Shown: piece after piece, positions 31,689-38,674 of the stretch
Layout: each line of letters opens with the position of its first letter
Numbering within the stretch: the stretch's first letter is position 1
Source of the DNA: Muribaculaceae bacterium
GTDB taxonomy: Bacteria; Bacteroidota; Bacteroidia; Bacteroidales; Muribaculaceae
DNA length: 49,747 nt
NCBI GenBank assembly: GCA_017427945.1
Contig: JAFRRT010000015.1
Coordinates: 1 to 49,747, forward strand
Direction: 5' to 3'
Position numbers and translations under genes: made by a program
Notes under the pieces: model-generated
The model's database searches: none
What the model was told of the DNA's origin: nothing
The model's input: only the letters and a program-made list of their open reading frames with translations

Positions 31689-33206
31689 TTACTTCATAAC
31701 CTTAACGGTCGAGGTGGTGCCGTCGGTGTAGGTCACAACCACGATGGTCATGCCGTTAGCCTGGCTCATCTCCTGACCAGCCATGTTGAAGTAGCGTACA
31801 CCAGCAACGTTCTGGCCGTTGATCAGCTCATCGATTGAGGTGGGAACCTTCTTGGGAACTAAGAAGGTGTAGGTGGTAACAGCACTAGCCTGGCAGGTCG
31901 GACCTTCGGTGGTGTAAGCAGTAACGGTTACATAGTAGTCCTCATCGCCGCGTACATAGCTGTAGTCACCGTTATAAACGAGCTGGCCATCGGTGTTGGG
32001 ATCGGGAGTTACGGTTACGGTAACAGCGGTCTCACCAACAGTCTCCTTGATAGTGGGAGCGTTAACCTCTTCCTTAGCCTTAGCGGGGATAGTGGTTTCT
32101 ACAGTTGCAGTGGTGGGCTTGTAGCCGGGAAGTTCGTTAGTTGCAACAACCTTGATTGTCTGCTCAGCATAGGTCTGAGGAATGTTGTCGCCACCAGTCC
32201 AAACCTGACCATCAACGTAGATTACATACTCAGTAGCATTGGTAACAACAACAGTTACACTACCATCTTCCTGAGTGTTGAAAGCAACAGTGGGCTCGGG
32301 TGAGCTGGGCTGAGCGATCTCAACCTGCTTCTCGGCCTTAACAGCTTCGCCTTCGAAGTGCTCGGTGTCACCAACAGCAACGTTCAAAACGATGTTGTAA
32401 ACGCCATAGTCGGGAGTCTGACCAAGTACGAGGGTAGCATTGCCTTCATTGTCCCAAGTTACGGTAACGGGCTGTTCGTTAACGGTAACGGTAACGACAG
32501 CAGCGGGGTCGTTAGCCTCGTAGTGCAGGGGAACATTGTAACCCTCAGCATCGCCGATAACAGCGGTAGCAACGAACGGGGTCTTCTCGGGCTCGGGAGG
32601 AGTTTGCTGGGTGAAGGTGATGTGGCAAACATGAGCCTCTGAATTATATTCCGGACCAGCCATGGGAATAACGTCAGCACGAGCGTCATTACCACTTGAG
32701 AAGTTAGAAGTAAGGGTAATCGTACCATCGAAGTTAGCCTTAGCGCCATCAACCACAGGCTTTACATAAATCTGGAAGAAGAGAAGGTCTTCATCAGCGG
32801 GTTCCCACTTAACGGCACCATACTGTACCCAACCATTACCATCGGGATTCCAGTAGCCATAAGTTGCACCAGTGAAGCCCATGAAGGCATAAACGTCACC
32901 AGCAAGGTTAGCCTCAGTGTTCAGGGTTTTAGTGGTACCCTTGTTGTTCTGGTAGGAAACTGAAAGACCGTTGGATTCGTCGGTTACGAAACCATCATCT
33001 TCGGGATCAGCTACCAAGTTGTCAGAATAAACGAGTTCGCAGCCATAGGCATTGAAAGCCACGTCAATGTGGCACATAACATCTACCAATACCGGCTGAT
33101 TGAGCTGTTCCTCGGTCAGTTCCACATCAGGAATGTAGAAATAGGTCTCGGCTGACACGACACCTGCCATGAGCAGCGCAGCAAGAGTAAATAAAAATTT
33201 CTTCAT
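31689..33206 (-). CDS. Large secreted beta-rich protein with sorting-type C-terminus
   Basis: This 505-residue exported protein has a signal peptide (about 1-19). An N-terminal beta domain (about 20-200) has cohesin-like or dockerin-partner-like features (hydrophobic strands, NAYGCELVYSD), but I cannot assign it. Two or three Ig/Big-like repeats rich in Thr and Val follow (about 210-430). The end (residues of about 455-505) reads GVRYFNMAGQEMSQANGMTI and closes in TDGTTSTVKVMK, which fits the C-terminal sorting domain of the type IX secretion system in Prevotella-like bacteria. So it is probably exported to the cell surface. A long leader of about 310 bases precedes it. Confidence 0.78.
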   Translation of the reverse strand: MKKFLFTLAALLMAGVVSAETYFYIPDVELTEEQLNQPVLVDVMCHIDVAFNAYGCELVYSDNLVADPEDDGFVTDESNGLSVSYQNNKGTTKTLNTEANLAGDVYAFMGFTGATYGYWNPDGNGWVQYGAVKWEPADEDLLFFQIYVKPVVDGAKANFDGTITLTSNFSSGNDARADVIPMAGPEYNSEAHVCHITFTQQTPPEPEKTPFVATAVIGDAEGYNVPLHYEANDPAAVVTVTVNEQPVTVTWDNEGNATLVLGQTPDYGVYNIVLNVAVGDTEHFEGEAVKAEKQVEIAQPSSPEPTVAFNTQEDGSVTVVVTNATEYVIYVDGQVWTGGDNIPQTYAEQTIKVVATNELPGYKPTTATVETTIPAKAKEEVNAPTIKETVGETAVTVTVTPDPNTDGQLVYNGDYSYVRGDEDYYVTVTAYTTEGPTCQASAVTTYTFLVPKKVPTSIDELINGQNVAGVRYFNMAGQEMSQANGMTIVVVTYTDGTTSTVKVMK

Positions 33207-33560: not shown

Positions 33561-33660
33561 ATAAATTCATCTTTTTTTTTCAAAAAAAACAACCACACGC
33601 ATGAGAGTCCCTTATTAGGACTCACAAATTGTTCCCCCAGAAACTCTCGTATAACTCAAA

Positions 33661-33682
33661 GCACTCCGAGTGCTCGGAGTGC
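33661..33682 (-). terminator. Terminator hairpin of the VTC/DUF4956 operon
   Basis: GCACTCCGA (33661-33669), loop GTGC and TCGGAGTGC (33674-33682) form a perfect 9-bp stem, 62 bases past the stop at 33744. TTTGAGTTAT follows on the minus strand. A second hairpin (GAGTCC/GGACTC, 33605-33623) comes next. Confidence 0.55.
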
Positions 33683-33743
33683 TCAGTAAACTAATAAATC
33701 ACATTAGGTCCCTTAAAGAGCCGACGGTGATACTCAAAGGACC

Positions 33744-35093
33744 TTAGTAAACCACCTCGAAGAGGCGCTTGTCGCTGTCATTGCGCGTAGTGTAGCCTTC
33801 TTTGACAGTGAGTGTGCCATCGACATCGATGGCCCTGCCGTTTAGTGAGCAGCTGTAGAACGATCCGCCGCTGATGGTGCAGTCGGTATCGCATTTCACG
33901 CCCTTAGGCTCCACCGTCTTTTGCGCTCCAGTGCACACCACATTCAGTTCACCTCCGCTGAACAGGAACGGCTCTGCCACATTGAGTCCCTTGGCATCAT
34001 CACCTGTGCACTTGATGTTGAGCGTGCCGCCGGTCATGGTGAGGTTACGGTCCGACTTGACACCTGCGCAGGTAGTGTAAACATCATTGCCCAGGCTGTC
34101 GGTCTCGTGGCGGGTAGCACCGCTGTTGAGGATGGTGATGCGACCGCCGGCAATCCACACAAGGCTGTCGCAGTTGATGCCCTTGGCTCCTTCGCCCGCA
34201 ATTTCCATATTGATAACGCCGCCCTTAATATAGACAAAGTCCTTGCCACGGATGCCGTGACCGCTGGTGCTGTTGAGATAGAGCTTGGTGCCGGGTCTAA
34301 CAAACACATAGTCGTCGCTCGACATGCAGTTCTTGCCCACGCTATAAACGTTGAGCGTACCCTTGCCGCTGACAAGTATCTGGCCCTCGCTGAAGACGGT
34401 TCCCTTTTGGTCCTCACCCTCGGTCATGACGTAGTTCTCACCGTCGCACAGCGTGTTGACAGTGCCCTCGTTCACAACAAGGTAGAACGACTTGCCGCAC
34501 TGGTTGTTAATGGCAGCACCCTGTGGGTTTGTGATGGACACACCGTTGAGCTGCAACTGGAATTTCCTGTCACAGTAGAACTTGAGAGAGCCATTGCCGG
34601 TCGAGCCTGTGACGACATATTTCACGCGCTTGGCAGCACTGGTGATGGTGACATGCGCACCATCGACCGAGGCCATGACAGTTGTGGGGTTGCCTGTCAC
34701 CGTCGCGGTCTCGCCGTCAAATGCTATATTCACCGTGGTGACCCATACCGTGTTCTCGACATAGTCTTCATAGTCCTCGTCATCCTCATCATCGGTGAAA
34801 CTCTCGGTGCCCTCGTCCAGAGCGCTAAAGTCCAGTTCAATATTCTTGGGTTTAAGGGTGTTGCCACCGCCCAGGATGATGTCGATGATGGCATTGATGT
34901 CGGCAATGTTCACCTCGTCGTCGCCGTTCACGTCGGCCGTGGTGGAGCTATTGCCGCCCAAGATGACATCTATGATGGCATTGACATCGGCGATGTTCAC
35001 CTCACCATCGGTATTCACGTCTCCTGTCACCGCCATCGCCTGGCTAAAAGCGAGCAATGCAGTGAGCGCAGCAAGTATAATATACTTTTTCAT
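33744..35093 (-). CDS. Dockerin-repeat protein with Cthe_2159-type beta-helix
   Basis: This 449-residue exported protein has a signal peptide (about 1-21). Two dockerin type I half repeats follow: GDVNTDGEVNIADVNAIIDV (about 24-43) and DVNGDDEVNIADINAIID (about 54-71). After a linker rich in Asp and Glu (about 85-108) comes a right-handed parallel beta-helix of the Cthe_2159 carbohydrate-binding family (about 115-449), with GAAINNQCGKSFYLVVNEGT, ISGKGTLNVYS-like turns and HGIRGKDFVYIKGG. Known members bind polygalacturonate or cellulose and calcium. It is the last gene of a five-gene operon, 14 bases after a homologous lipoprotein gene. Having the dockerin at the N-terminus is less common than the C-terminal position. 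Confidence 0.87.
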   Translation of the reverse strand: MKKYIILAALTALLAFSQAMAVTGDVNTDGEVNIADVNAIIDVILGGNSSTTADVNGDDEVNIADINAIIDIILGGGNTLKPKNIELDFSALDEGTESFTDDEDDEDYEDYVENTVWVTTVNIAFDGETATVTGNPTTVMASVDGAHVTITSAAKRVKYVVTGSTGNGSLKFYCDRKFQLQLNGVSITNPQGAAINNQCGKSFYLVVNEGTVNTLCDGENYVMTEGEDQKGTVFSEGQILVSGKGTLNVYSVGKNCMSSDDYVFVRPGTKLYLNSTSGHGIRGKDFVYIKGGVINMEIAGEGAKGINCDSLVWIAGGRITILNSGATRHETDSLGNDVYTTCAGVKSDRNLTMTGGTLNIKCTGDDAKGLNVAEPFLFSGGELNVVCTGAQKTVEPKGVKCDTDCTISGGSFYSCSLNGRAIDVDGTLTVKEGYTTRNDSDKRLFEVVY

Positions 35094-35107
35094 AATTCTT
35101 GTTTGGG

Positions 35108-36325
35108 TTAATAGGCTATCGTTAAAAGCTTGGCAGTCAATTGATAGGTGATGTAGCCTGGAGCAATGGAGGTAGCTCCTGCAACATCCAGCGGATCGCT
35201 GCGACGGCTGTAGCTGTAAAAGTAGCCACCCTTGATGTAGAAGCTGCCGTCAATCTTCACGCCCTTGGGCTTTTTCATTTCCTTGGTGCCCGTGGCTACG
35301 GCCTGGAAATGGCCATCATTGACAATGACATTCTGCTTGGCATTCAGGCCCTTACCGCCGTCACCGGTCGCCTTGAGTTTGACAACACCGGCATTGACTG
35401 TGAGCAGTGTGTCACACACAAGTGCAGCACAGGCCGTAGTATCGCTGTCGCCGTCATCGTTGGCGCCAAGGCGGGTATCACCCTGACTGATGGCGACCAG
35501 GCGACCGCCATTGATGGTCATCTCGCCGCCGCTGCGCACGCCCTTGGCGCCCGCGCCAGTGGTCGCTACATTCACGGCACCACCGTCAACAATGATGCCG
35601 TCATTGGCGCGCAAGCCGTCAAGCGCACTGCTATAGACGTTGATTTTCACTCCCGGACGAATGCGGATGTAGTCATCGCTGCGGATGCCGCCGCGACCCT
35701 CGGCTATAACATCGAGCTGACCTTTGCCGCTGAAGATGATCTGGCCCTCGCTGAACAGGGCCGCTTTCTGGTCCTCCTCATCAACCATCGTGTAGAATGT
35801 GCCATCTTGCAGTCTGTTGACAGAACCCTCGGCCAGCACGACATACATCGATTTGCTGCCCTGATTATTGATGGCTGCTCCGTGGGGATTGGTAATTTCG
35901 GCTCCGTTGAGCAACAGCTGGAAACGCTTGTCACCATAGAACTTCAACGAGCCGTCGGTCGTCCTACCACTGACAACGAATTTCACAGGCCCTGAGATGT
36001 TCATCACCGTGACATGGTTGCCGTTAGTCTGTACAGCTACGCCGGGAACCGTGCCTTCCACCACAGGCGAAGGTCCGCCAAAGGTGATGTAAATGATCTT
36101 GTTCCACGGGCTGTTTTCCACATAGTCGTTGTAGGCCGAGTCATTCTCGTCGGTGACAGGGACATCGGCTGCCTCAGTCAATTCGCTGTAGTCCAGCTTA
36201 ATCTCTGCCGGCTCCATCTGGTATTGGGCGATGATGTCGTCAAAGTCGGTGTCATCGTTCACGCACGATGTCGCCACCAGGCTCAGCAGGGTCAAAAACA
36301 GGCTATAGTGTAGAATTCTTTTCAT
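35108..36325 (-). CDS. Cthe_2159-type beta-helix lipoprotein
   Basis: This 405-residue lipoprotein has signal and lipobox LVATSC with Cys21. A short linker and one Cthe_2159-type beta-helix domain (about 90-405) follow, with GAAINNQGSKSMYVVLAEGS, FSGKGQLDVIAEGRGGIRSD and NVATTGAGAKGVRSGG turns. The domain is close to that of the next gene, so the pair arose by duplication; this copy is membrane-anchored and the other carries dockerin repeats instead. It likely binds a polyanionic or glycan polymer together with calcium. It starts 6 bases before the end of the DUF2490 gene region, which indicates one operon. No enzymatic residues are evident. Confidence 0.87.
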   Translation of the reverse strand: MKRILHYSLFLTLLSLVATSCVNDDTDFDDIIAQYQMEPAEIKLDYSELTEAADVPVTDENDSAYNDYVENSPWNKIIYITFGGPSPVVEGTVPGVAVQTNGNHVTVMNISGPVKFVVSGRTTDGSLKFYGDKRFQLLLNGAEITNPHGAAINNQGSKSMYVVLAEGSVNRLQDGTFYTMVDEEDQKAALFSEGQIIFSGKGQLDVIAEGRGGIRSDDYIRIRPGVKINVYSSALDGLRANDGIIVDGGAVNVATTGAGAKGVRSGGEMTINGGRLVAISQGDTRLGANDDGDSDTTACAALVCDTLLTVNAGVVKLKATGDGGKGLNAKQNVIVNDGHFQAVATGTKEMKKPKGVKIDGSFYIKGGYFYSYSRRSDPLDVAGATSIAPGYITYQLTAKLLTIAY

Positions 36326-36330
36326 ATCTT

Positions 36331-37089
36331 TCAGAATTTATAGGTGTAGCCCAAGCCCAGCATATGGATATCGCCCTCGGTATCACTGCTGCTGTTGACA
36401 ATCTGGTAACGATAAAAAGCCTGGAAACTGTGTTTCTTCTTAATGGTGTGGTTCACACCCAGATGCATGCGCGTCTTGTCAAGGCCGCTCCTCGTGTAAA
36501 ACTCCACGTTGGCGAACGGGTCGAACTTGCACTTGGGAATGTCCCACTCAACCTGCAGGCGGCTGCGCAACACGTTCTTGCCCTTGCCGCGCACTTCATG
36601 GTCCTCCCACATGGCCTCATCAAAGTCAAAGTTGTCGATGACCTTCGAGGGGCGGTAGGTGTACTGCCAACGCTCACGCAGGCTCAATTCCACGCGCTGT
36701 ATCTTGTAGCTACCTGTGAGCGACACGTTAAAGCGGTGGCGTACACCCCAATAGCTGGGGCGCCAGTTGTTGTAGTTCACGCCGTCGTCCTGATAAGTAA
36801 TCTCCTCACGGTTGTTGTCAAAGAGCAGGACGTAACCGGCGCTTGCCTTGAGCCACGGCAGGAACTTATAGCTCGCGTCGGCACCCAGACTCACACGTTC
36901 GGCCGTGCGAAAGTCGTTGCGGGAGCGGAACTCGGCCTCGGCACCCACACTCAGCTTCTTGGAGAACTTATGAGACACACCTGCCGAGAGCACAAGCCCG
37001 GCATCGTCGGCGTGCGACGGTGTCGGGATGATGGCGGCTAACACTAACAGCAACAGTGCCGTCAGTTGGTTTCTTTGACTTCTTCCCAT
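36331..37089 (-). CDS. DUF2490 outer-membrane beta-barrel protein
   Basis: This 252-residue protein has a signal peptide (about 1-26) and about twelve amphipathic strands ending in HMLGLGYTYKF, a typical outer-membrane barrel with a C-terminal aromatic residue. It fits DUF2490, a small barrel family common in Bacteroidota. Strand pairs such as GAEAEFRSRNDFRTAERVSL and LRERWQYTYRPSK show the alternating pattern. The start overlaps the end of the DUF4956 gene by 28 bases, so translation is coupled. In this operon it would provide an outer-membrane channel or anchor for a polymer or its binding proteins. That role is inference. Confidence 0.85.
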   Translation of the reverse strand: MGRSQRNQLTALLLLVLAAIIPTPSHADDAGLVLSAGVSHKFSKKLSVGAEAEFRSRNDFRTAERVSLGADASYKFLPWLKASAGYVLLFDNNREEITYQDDGVNYNNWRPSYWGVRHRFNVSLTGSYKIQRVELSLRERWQYTYRPSKVIDNFDFDEAMWEDHEVRGKGKNVLRSRLQVEWDIPKCKFDPFANVEFYTRSGLDKTRMHLGVNHTIKKKHSFQAFYRYQIVNSSSDTEGDIHMLGLGYTYKF

Positions 37090-37796
37090 TCGTATCTTGG
37101 AATTTTCAGGGTGTTATTGACGTGGCTCGTGGGAACGCCGTCGGTCTCGTATTCTATCTTGAGAATAGCACTGTCCTTGAGGAAGTCCACCGAACCCACC
37201 TTGACCTTGGTGATCTTCAAACCGGTGCGCTTCTGCAAGTCTTCAATGAGGTCCTCGCGACGTTCAGGAGAGATGAGCTCGATGCGGTCATACAAAATTA
37301 GCTTGCTTGAGAGGTTGCCGCGCAGCACAAAGGCCTCGAACAGCCAAATCAATCCGGCAATCGCCAAGTTGGGGACGGCAAGTTCGGCAAAGCTCATCGT
37401 ATCGGCCAGGGCATTGATAACCGAGAGGCAGATGACGCTGAACATGTAGGTCATCTCACGCACGGGAATCGTTTCGGTACGGTATCGCAGGATGCCAAAG
37501 ATGGCGAACAGTCCCAAGGCAAAGCCTATCTTCACCTTCACGCTACCCAGCAGATAGATGAGGAAGAAAATGCTCACACTCAGCAGGATAAGTGTAAAGA
37601 AGTAGTCACGGCGGTGCGTCTTGCGGTAATACAGGAAATGCACAATGAACCACACGATGACAAACAGGAACAGGAAACGCAGCAGCATCTCCATAAACCC
37701 TGCACCGTCATACCAATTGATTCCGAATGCCTTTGTCGCGGCATTATGAACGGCGTCCACACTATTCTCTAATCCTAAATCTTGAAGTAGTATCAT
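37062..37796 (-). CDS. DUF4956 inner-membrane protein
   Basis: This 244-residue protein has about five membrane helices (about 37-56, 66-83, 87-104, 118-134 and 140-160). A cytoplasmic C-terminal domain of about 75 residues follows (LISPERREDLIEDLQKRTGL to ILKIEYETDG) with a ferredoxin-like pattern. The conserved loop ILRYRTETIPVREMTYMF is the most recognisable DUF4956 feature. In many bacteria DUF4956 genes sit next to VTC-domain polyphosphate polymerase genes, as here (31 bases downstream). The probable role is to carry, or form a channel for, the polymer made by the VTC enzyme; this is an inference from gene neighbourhood, not a shown activity. Confidence 0.88.
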   Translation of the reverse strand: MILLQDLGLENSVDAVHNAATKAFGINWYDGAGFMEMLLRFLFLFVIVWFIVHFLYYRKTHRRDYFFTLILLSVSIFFLIYLLGSVKVKIGFALGLFAIFGILRYRTETIPVREMTYMFSVICLSVINALADTMSFAELAVPNLAIAGLIWLFEAFVLRGNLSSKLILYDRIELISPERREDLIEDLQKRTGLKITKVKVGSVDFLKDSAILKIEYETDGVPTSHVNNTLKIPRYEWEEVKETN

Positions 37797-37827
37797 TTTT
37801 TATTTTGATTTTGTTATTGGCTTGTTA

Positions 37828-38622
37828 TTAACATTGGGCACGGGACAACAGGCGCTCTATCATGTGCAACCGCTCCTTGAAGTTGTTGCGCTTCAACGAG
37901 GGATTGGTCAACGCCGACCCCATGCAGTATTTGCTGAAACCGCTCGGCTTGATGCGCAAGTTGCGCAGCATCCCCAGGATGGGCGATGGCTGCAGGCCAT
38001 CACGCTTCAGCTCAATGATGGCAAGCCCTGTCAAGTCGGCATCTTTGCCTGTAACCATGTTGTGGAAACACAGGTCGAAGTCGATGGTCAAACGCTCGGT
38101 CTTGGCCTTGTTCACCAGCGTGATGCGGTGGAAATGGTTCTCAAGGTGCTCGGTCAGCACAGTGGGGTCATAGCGCAGATGCTTGCGCAGAAACATGTCA
38201 TAGGAGCGGTATTGCTCGTCCTGGCGCAGGAACCTGATGCCGTGGTCGGGGTGCTTTGGGTCAAAGCCCACCATATCGACACGTTTCTTCTTGGTGCGAC
38301 CATGGTTGTTCTTGGTCTTCACTTCCAAGAAGTTAAGCCCCGAGTCCACATAGGAGCGGATGCGCAGCTTTTGGCGCCCCGCATGACCGTTCTGGTGAAC
38401 GATATACATGTTGTTGTCGGGGGTGTCAAAGTAGGCGGTGTAGTATTCCGCAATGCGTATCCCGTCAACATCTTGCACGCGATAATCGTTTTGGGCAAGT
38501 TCCAACAACAGCATGAGCCGATCAACCGTCGTCACAAATTTGGTGTCGGTGCGGTTCATCAGCTTGATGCCACTCATCTCGTCTAGACCGATGGGTTGGT
38601 ACGTTGAAATGATCTTGTCCAT
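37828..38622 (-). CDS. VTC-domain polyphosphate polymerase-like protein
   Basis: This 264-residue cytoplasmic protein has the triphosphate-tunnel fold of the VTC4 catalytic domain. Tunnel residues are visible as RTDTKF (Arg24, Lys28), KLRIRSY (Arg87, Arg89), FLEVKTK (Glu100, Lys102, Lys104), ELKRDG (Glu204, Lys206) and GFSKYCMG (Lys231). In yeast VTC4 this domain makes inorganic polyphosphate from ATP and passes it through a membrane. Here the protein has no membrane part of its own; the next gene (DUF4956) supplies one. It is the first gene of the operon, with a clear promoter at 38646-38674. Product and direction of transport are inferred. Confidence 0.9.
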   Translation of the reverse strand: MDKIISTYQPIGLDEMSGIKLMNRTDTKFVTTVDRLMLLLELAQNDYRVQDVDGIRIAEYYTAYFDTPDNNMYIVHQNGHAGRQKLRIRSYVDSGLNFLEVKTKNNHGRTKKKRVDMVGFDPKHPDHGIRFLRQDEQYRSYDMFLRKHLRYDPTVLTEHLENHFHRITLVNKAKTERLTIDFDLCFHNMVTGKDADLTGLAIIELKRDGLQPSPILGMLRNLRIKPSGFSKYCMGSALTNPSLKRNNFKERLHMIERLLSRAQC

Positions 38623-38645
38623 ATATTATTAAACGCAAAGAGACG

Positions 38646-38674
38646 CAAAAGTATATAAATTAACTCAATTTCAA
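38646..38674 (-). promoter_or_regulatory. Promoter of the VTC/DUF4956 operon
   Basis: On the minus strand TTG (38674-38672), an 18-base spacer and TACTTTTG (38653-38646), with the ATG 23 bases downstream. Confidence 0.7.

Follow-up and report, generated by a model that had tools for sequence, protein, structure and literature searches.

What could bring together, in a single gene set, a putative polyphosphate polymerase, a protein of the inner membrane, a barrel of the outer membrane and two proteins of the cell-surface type? This question is raised by a locus in a 49,747-nucleotide stretch of DNA (the window) from a Muribaculaceae bacterium (assembly GCA_017427945.1, contig JAFRRT010000015.1, positions 1 to 49,747), where five open reading frames (ORFs) on the minus strand encode, in this order, a VTC-domain protein, a DUF4956 protein, a DUF2490 protein, a Cthe_2159-type lipoprotein, and a Cthe_2159 protein with a dockerin. 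An earlier reading of the window, hereafter the original prediction, proposed that these genes form an operon whose products make a polyanion and hold it at the cell surface.

We tentatively favor the view that the operon is a polyanion synthesis-and-display system, its last step possibly being another surface role, and put the chances of this complete scheme somewhat below even. Synthesis of polyphosphate is likely, as judged from sequence, whereas we infer the export and surface display of the polymer, and likewise the direction of transport, the binding of polyphosphate and any role of calcium. In the proposed scheme, VTC would polymerize phosphate from ATP on the cytoplasmic side of the inner membrane, and DUF4956, as a dedicated membrane partner, would probably pass the growing chain across that membrane, in the manner of the yeast Vtc membrane domains. 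The anionic chain would then get outside through the basic-lined DUF2490 barrel of the outer membrane, where the surface-anchored Cthe_2159 lipoprotein and the secreted, dockerin-tagged paralogue would bind and organize it. The scheme builds on the gene order, the domain membership, an intact polymerase site, a basic barrel face, a surface-export-like signal and recurrent co-location, all of which were computed, and recurrence at many VTC loci argues that the operon is not a local accident.

The gene set and its predicted polymerase

All five products matched Pfam families above the curated cut-offs. The leading gene (positions 37828-38622) encodes P0001, a VTC-domain polyphosphate polymerase-like enzyme of 264 amino acids (PF09359, E-value 3e-27; 96.1 bits against a cut-off of 23). 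Profile comparison ranks Vtc4 chains as its nearest solved proteins (3g3q, 4.4e-15), with Vtc2 (2e-10) and Vtc3 (1.7e-6) behind; as a single-sequence query, P0001 matched no PDB chain. The alignment shows 13 positions equal to those of yeast Vtc4: R24 (R196 in Vtc4), K28 (K200), D66 (D243), R87 (R264), R89 (R266), E100 (E279), K102 (K281), K112 (K294), R166 (R361), R177 (R373), E204 (E426), S230 (S457) and K231 (K458). The basic tunnel residues and the metal-binding Glu are identical in all 66 aligned proteins and conserved to at least 98% in 133, which, together with the Vtc4 alignment, bears out the tunnel residues that had been assigned from the start. According to the accessible text of PMC9911596, joint substitution of R264, R266 and E426 impairs yeast VTC, and in this complex polyphosphate synthesis is coupled to passage across the membrane. 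We consider it quite likely from these residues that P0001 makes polyphosphate. An SPX domain was not found on the protein, for which Pfam gave the VTC match and one sub-threshold peptidase match. Neither PPK1 nor PPK2 had a match in the window's genome, which is about 96% complete, and VTC is therefore the sole polyphosphate polymerase recognized there. Elsewhere, a VTC match with one in-frame TAG (G229:C134:12427-13074, locus L079) could reflect a disrupted gene, an error in the assembly or an alternative code.

The genes that follow encode the predicted DUF4956 inner-membrane partner (P0002, 244 amino acids, 37062-37796; PF16316, 3.1e-53), the DUF2490 outer-membrane beta-barrel (P0003, 252 amino acids, 36331-37089; PF10677, 4.5e-30), the Cthe_2159-type surface lipoprotein (P0004, 405 amino acids, 35108-36325; PF14262, 5.5e-42), and a protein combining a dockerin type I with a Cthe_2159 domain (P0005, 449 amino acids, 33744-35093; PF00404, 2.2e-6, and PF14262, 1.1e-40). 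In gene order, the intergenic distances are 31, -28 (an overlap), 5 and 14 bases. The coordinates, order, gaps, overlap and domain identities of the original prediction agree to the base with the ORFs and the Pfam results.

The promoter that it placed at 38646-38674 on the minus strand is present in the sequence, with a -33 TTG (38674-38672), an 18-base spacer and a -7 box, TACTTTTG (38653-38646), which we take to be of the Bacteroidota TAnnTTTG promoter type. A TAnnTTTG starting 15-27 bases upstream of the VTC start occurs in all nine of the closest named relatives (L172-L180). A sigma-70 scan, which is no test of a Bacteroidota-type promoter, did not list the site. At the other end of the set, the two expected hairpins were recovered (33650-33744, minus strand; -36.6 kcal/mol, z = -4.06 against shuffled sequences) and could serve as a transcript terminator or 3' stabilizer; a scan for intrinsic terminators, in which a T-run is required, did not list them. 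The five genes would be carried on a single transcript. Beyond the hairpins lies a minus-strand ORF (31689-33206) for a secreted-looking 505-amino-acid protein to which neither Pfam nor NCBIfam gave a match at E 0.1; beside the operons of relatives, it had only one fragment match.

Recurrence of the neighborhood and exchange of partners

We fetched 133 VTC loci (54 from a family draw of genomes, including the window, and 79 from an order draw), scanned them with purpose-built profiles, and added a second set of 80 VTC loci of named genomes. VTC was present in 74 of 149 order-draw and 54 of 198 family-draw genomes (the window's genome is in both), and in 15 of 16 genus members among those listed. 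Within 7 kb of VTC, DUF4956 was found at 129 of the 133 loci, DUF2490 at 84 and Cthe_2159 at 30; DUF4956 was on the same strand and no more than 300 bases from VTC at 127. The statement of the original prediction that VTC and DUF4956 are often neighbors is well supported by these figures. DUF4956 was missed at L052, L057, L073 and the contig-end locus L159; at the first three, which come from family-level genomes, VTC is full-length and DUF4956 was not found in the fetched stretch. The corresponding counts at the 80 named loci are 78 for DUF4956, 72 for DUF2490 and 41 for Cthe_2159 (4 of these on the other strand), and the loci with the set include those of Bacteroides salyersiae (L244) and Bacteroides ihuae (L247). 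The neighborhood is thus kept far beyond close strains, as the co-occurrence search suggested at the outset could establish.

Five of the 133 loci and 14 of the 80 have the strict order VTC-DUF4956-DUF2490-Cthe_2159-Cthe_2159; a further locus in each set has an additional upstream copy. In the family draw, 6 of 15 VTC loci of the genus show this order, L050 with an extra upstream copy. Across the 149 order genomes, VTC was associated with DUF4956 (p 4.5e-34), DUF2490 (5.1e-6) and Cthe_2159 (9e-4), relatedness being ignored in these values. VTC and Cthe_2159 were at most 7 kb apart in 7 of 20 order-draw genomes holding both, where random placement would give 0.13 (p 1.6e-11). Among 14 control genomes, VTC and DUF4956 matched in the same three, one of which (B. 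ihuae) had Cthe_2159 and the other two CotH. A tree of 132 VTC proteins, in which several long branches are possibly misplaced, implies 10 changes of the Cthe_2159 label, 4 of them required by well-supported branches, and 20 of the CotH label (9 required); the repeated changes of the Cthe_2159 label suggest that the link was remade or lost repeatedly. Directly upstream of VTC, 22 loci (e.g., L062:5415-5837, L101 and L103) carry a secreted-looking family of about 140 amino acids without a Pfam match, and 20 loci have a lipoprotein-like family of about 160 amino acids, in most cases one gene farther upstream.

CotH was detected by its purpose-built profile near VTC at 28 of 133 loci, together with Cthe_2159 at none of them and at 1 of the 80 named loci. 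Pfam analysis of 20 neighbor proteins showed some CotH proteins to carry further domains: lamin-tail, leucine-rich-repeat, beta-helix or secretion-tail. At 14 of the 133 loci (L093, L102, L104, L110, L120, L123 and others), DUF4956 precedes VTC; this second locus type often includes large CotH proteins, some with leucine-rich repeats or beta-helices. We also opened 4 of 16 plasmid matches. A Deinococcus taeanensis plasmid has CotH-VTC-DUF4956, without pel among the annotated genes of 12.7 kb (the PLSDB gene table is incomplete). According to deposited annotations, plasmids of Aminobacter, Shinella and Nitratireductor have DUF4956-VTC with a phytase-like gene next or next but one; in Nitratireductor, an inorganic phosphate transporter lies between them, and the phytase-like protein has, by eye, a signal-peptide-like start. 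The swapped partners (Cthe_2159, CotH and phytase-like proteins) come from usually secreted families, as would be expected if the product goes out. The five-gene operon is the arrangement of only part of this genus; more generally, the locus consists of a two-gene core with an exchangeable partner.

A possible path to the cell surface

The AlphaFold2 model of P0002 (predicted local distance difference test score, pLDDT, 82.9) shows some five membrane helices and, at the C terminus, a small alpha/beta domain; it had no specific fold match, and none of the Vtc chains matched DUF4956 in the searches made. A Pfam MgtC match was found in 13 of 73 DUF4956 members, weak at best (0.0072), and hhalign with E. 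coli YhiD gave 0.2%. DUF4956 very probably acts with VTC, and the odds lean slightly toward a polymer chain that crosses the inner membrane.

P0003 was modeled as a beta-barrel (pLDDT 92), as predicted, and the acidic-sugar porins KdgM, VhGalP and NanC are among its best structural matches, with autotransporter barrels tied (within 1 Z). The polar face of DUF2490, assigned by alternation in strands and not from coordinates, has 18 columns with at least 80% Lys/Arg and 4 acidic-type columns. Sequence homology to NanC was not detected by hhalign (probability 10%, signal peptide only), nor was a relationship to KdgM by profile (E 0.31). DUF2490 corresponds to the putative porin family 1.B.81 of TCDB, whose functions are given as not established in the accessible text of PMC4827864. 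We consider the odds about even that DUF2490 forms an anion channel through which the polymer chain passes.

The mature P0004 would start with CVNDDTDFDD, a lipobox Cys followed by acidic residues at +4/+5, and several relatives have CQKDDTD or CVKDDTD. Pooling the two locus sets, which overlap, gave 95 Cthe_2159 proteins encoded at VTC loci on the same strand as VTC. A simple pattern, with a few misfires, assigned a lipobox to 54 of them, 45 of which have two or more acidic residues between +2 and +6. These residues fit the Bacteroidota lipoprotein surface-export signals QKDDE and SDDDD, as reported in the available part of PMC5080379, so the lipoprotein of the original prediction does have a signal of the surface-export type. 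P0005 is a tandem paralogue of P0004 (42% identity) with a signal-peptide-like start, and a pattern search, strict enough that it could overlook some, found a dockerin motif in 8 of the 95 proteins.

P0004 also matched PDB 4peu/4phb (3.5e-13), deposited as 'Uncharacterized protein', which we take to be Clostridium thermocellum Cthe_2159. From the accessible text of PMC6712302, the ligands of Cthe_2159 are cellulose and polygalacturonate, and CotH and Cthe_2159 are among the special domains of anaerobic rumen fungi. Cthe_2159 proteins might hold the polymer outside, a step about which we are more doubtful than about the barrel.

The 2.77 Mb genome of the window has 136 dockerin type I matches (the one in the window at 34875-35024), which seems a very large set for a Bacteroidales genome. 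Its only cohesin match is at G000:C6, approximately 140,250-140,990, within a 375-amino-acid ORF (L256:2148-3275) in which a pair of weak cohesin-like domains and, at the C terminus, a dockerin can be made out by eye. None of the 11 CotH matches in this genome falls on the window's contig (C9), and 10 of them share one open frame with a dockerin (contigs C8, C10, C15, C18, C35 and C37; coordinates, frame and frame length compared by hand). The last gene of the operon carries a dockerin as well.

Other explanations and known systems

In the accessible text of PMC7112168, CotH, a polyphosphate polymerase and DUF4956 are accessory genes of Pel clusters in streptococci, clostridia and bifidobacteria, contiguous with the Gram-positive Pel operons. 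In that of PMC12345266, Streptococcus intermedius mutants in SIR_1592 and SIR_1594 (CotH) have changed Pel levels and aggregation; from gene order, SIR_1592 would be the DUF4956 gene. VTC-DUF4956 could support the making, regulation or decoration of a surface polysaccharide bound by Cthe_2159, with polyphosphate as a signal or energy source rather than the polymer on display. Acidic polysaccharide is a known Cthe_2159 ligand, and neighbor ORFs at L093 and L102 look, by eye, like glycosyltransferases; but no glycosyltransferase or Pel gene is among the five operon genes or, by Pfam, among the 20 neighbor proteins, a small sample, with no genome search aimed at pel, and the alphaproteobacterial loci carry phosphate genes instead. 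We regard this explanation as unlikely, and give a similarly low chance to one in which VTC-DUF4956 makes or regulates cytoplasmic polyphosphate or phosphate balance and the envelope genes just share its promoter and conditions. The latter would account for a VTC-DUF4956 linkage that is far tighter than that to other families, and for the loci where only these two of the four families lie within 7 kb (31 of 133 VTC-first, plus 14 DUF4956-first). Against it speak the overlap of DUF2490 with DUF4956, the recurrent retention of DUF2490, the secreted-type partners in other phyla, and the Cthe_2159 label changes on the VTC tree.

Less probable still is the capture of acidic oligosaccharides, in which Cthe_2159 would bind pectic acid, DUF2490 would import oligomers as KdgM does, and VTC-DUF4956 would adjust energy or phosphate. 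The porin-like fold, the Cthe_2159 ligands, the rumen origin of many relatives, and three loci (L164-L166) with DUF2490 and Cthe_2159 at most 4 kb apart and no VTC all speak for it. However, the five genes include no pectinase, SusC/SusD or sugar transporter, the constant VTC-DUF4956 pair is left unexplained, and the genomes of the three loci (G042, G120 and G001) all have VTC-DUF4956 elsewhere. Finally, VTC-DUF4956 might export polyphosphate as a phosphoryl donor for secreted CotH kinases, which would phosphorylate proteins outside the cell, where ATP is scarce. CotH is the other partner that recurs at VTC loci, and although the CotH kinases of this genome are encoded away from the operon, the dockerin that most of them share with its last gene could bring them together on a surface built with dockerins. 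This reading seems very improbable, and B. ihuae, in which VTC, DUF4956, DUF2490 and Cthe_2159 have matches and CotH has none, counts against it.

If the synthesis-and-display reading is correct, many gut and environmental Bacteroidales would have a dedicated, PPK-independent route for making and displaying polyphosphate, with DUF4956 and DUF2490 as its inner- and outer-membrane parts. The presence of the set in named Bacteroides (B. salyersiae and B. ihuae) makes this directly testable. The idea of a core machine that exports a polymer and works with interchangeable partners outside the cytoplasm would also offer a common logic for the unexplained VTC-DUF4956-CotH sets of Pel loci.

The original prediction regarded a system of this kind as undescribed in gut Bacteroidota, which overstated its novelty. 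The combination of VTC-DUF4956 with a secreted partner is already known from Gram-positive Pel clusters (PMC7112168 and PMC12345266, in their accessible text); new here is the variant with DUF2490 and Cthe_2159, and no description of the four-family set was found in the literature searched, largely without subscription papers. The authors of PMC12345266, in its available part, did not find the CotH/VTC/DUF4956 trio away from Pel loci, a result to be qualified by the CotH counts at our 133 and 80 loci and by the Deinococcus plasmid. In Clostridium perfringens, VTC, CotH and a membrane protein labeled 'tubulin', which would be DUF4956, occur together (PMC2879425, accessible part).

With the yeast VTC complex (PMC9911596; PDB 3g3q and 8i6v), the operon shares the catalytic domain, the tunnel residues and the pairing of polymerase and membrane partner, but the yeast complex has an SPX domain and the operon encodes separate small proteins. 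The acidic-sugar porins KdgM and NanC (PDB 4fqe, 4pr7 and 2wjr) resemble DUF2490 in their basic lumen or polar face; they are uptake channels without detectable sequence kinship to it. C. thermocellum Cthe_2159 belongs to the same beta-helix domain family, whereas here a surface-type lipoprotein and a dockerin fusion stand beside VTC. The DUF4956-DUF2490 gene pair recurs in Bacteroides thetaiotaomicron as BT3498-BT3499, listed together in an iron transcriptome (PMC10434189, accessible part). The closest published relative, the Gram-positive Pel accessory cassette (CotH, VTC, DUF4956 and DUF4832), likewise has VTC and DUF4956, a secreted partner and a tie to the cell surface; our operon has neither CotH nor DUF4832 and includes an outer-membrane barrel as well as a pair of Cthe_2159 proteins, in a Gram-negative envelope.

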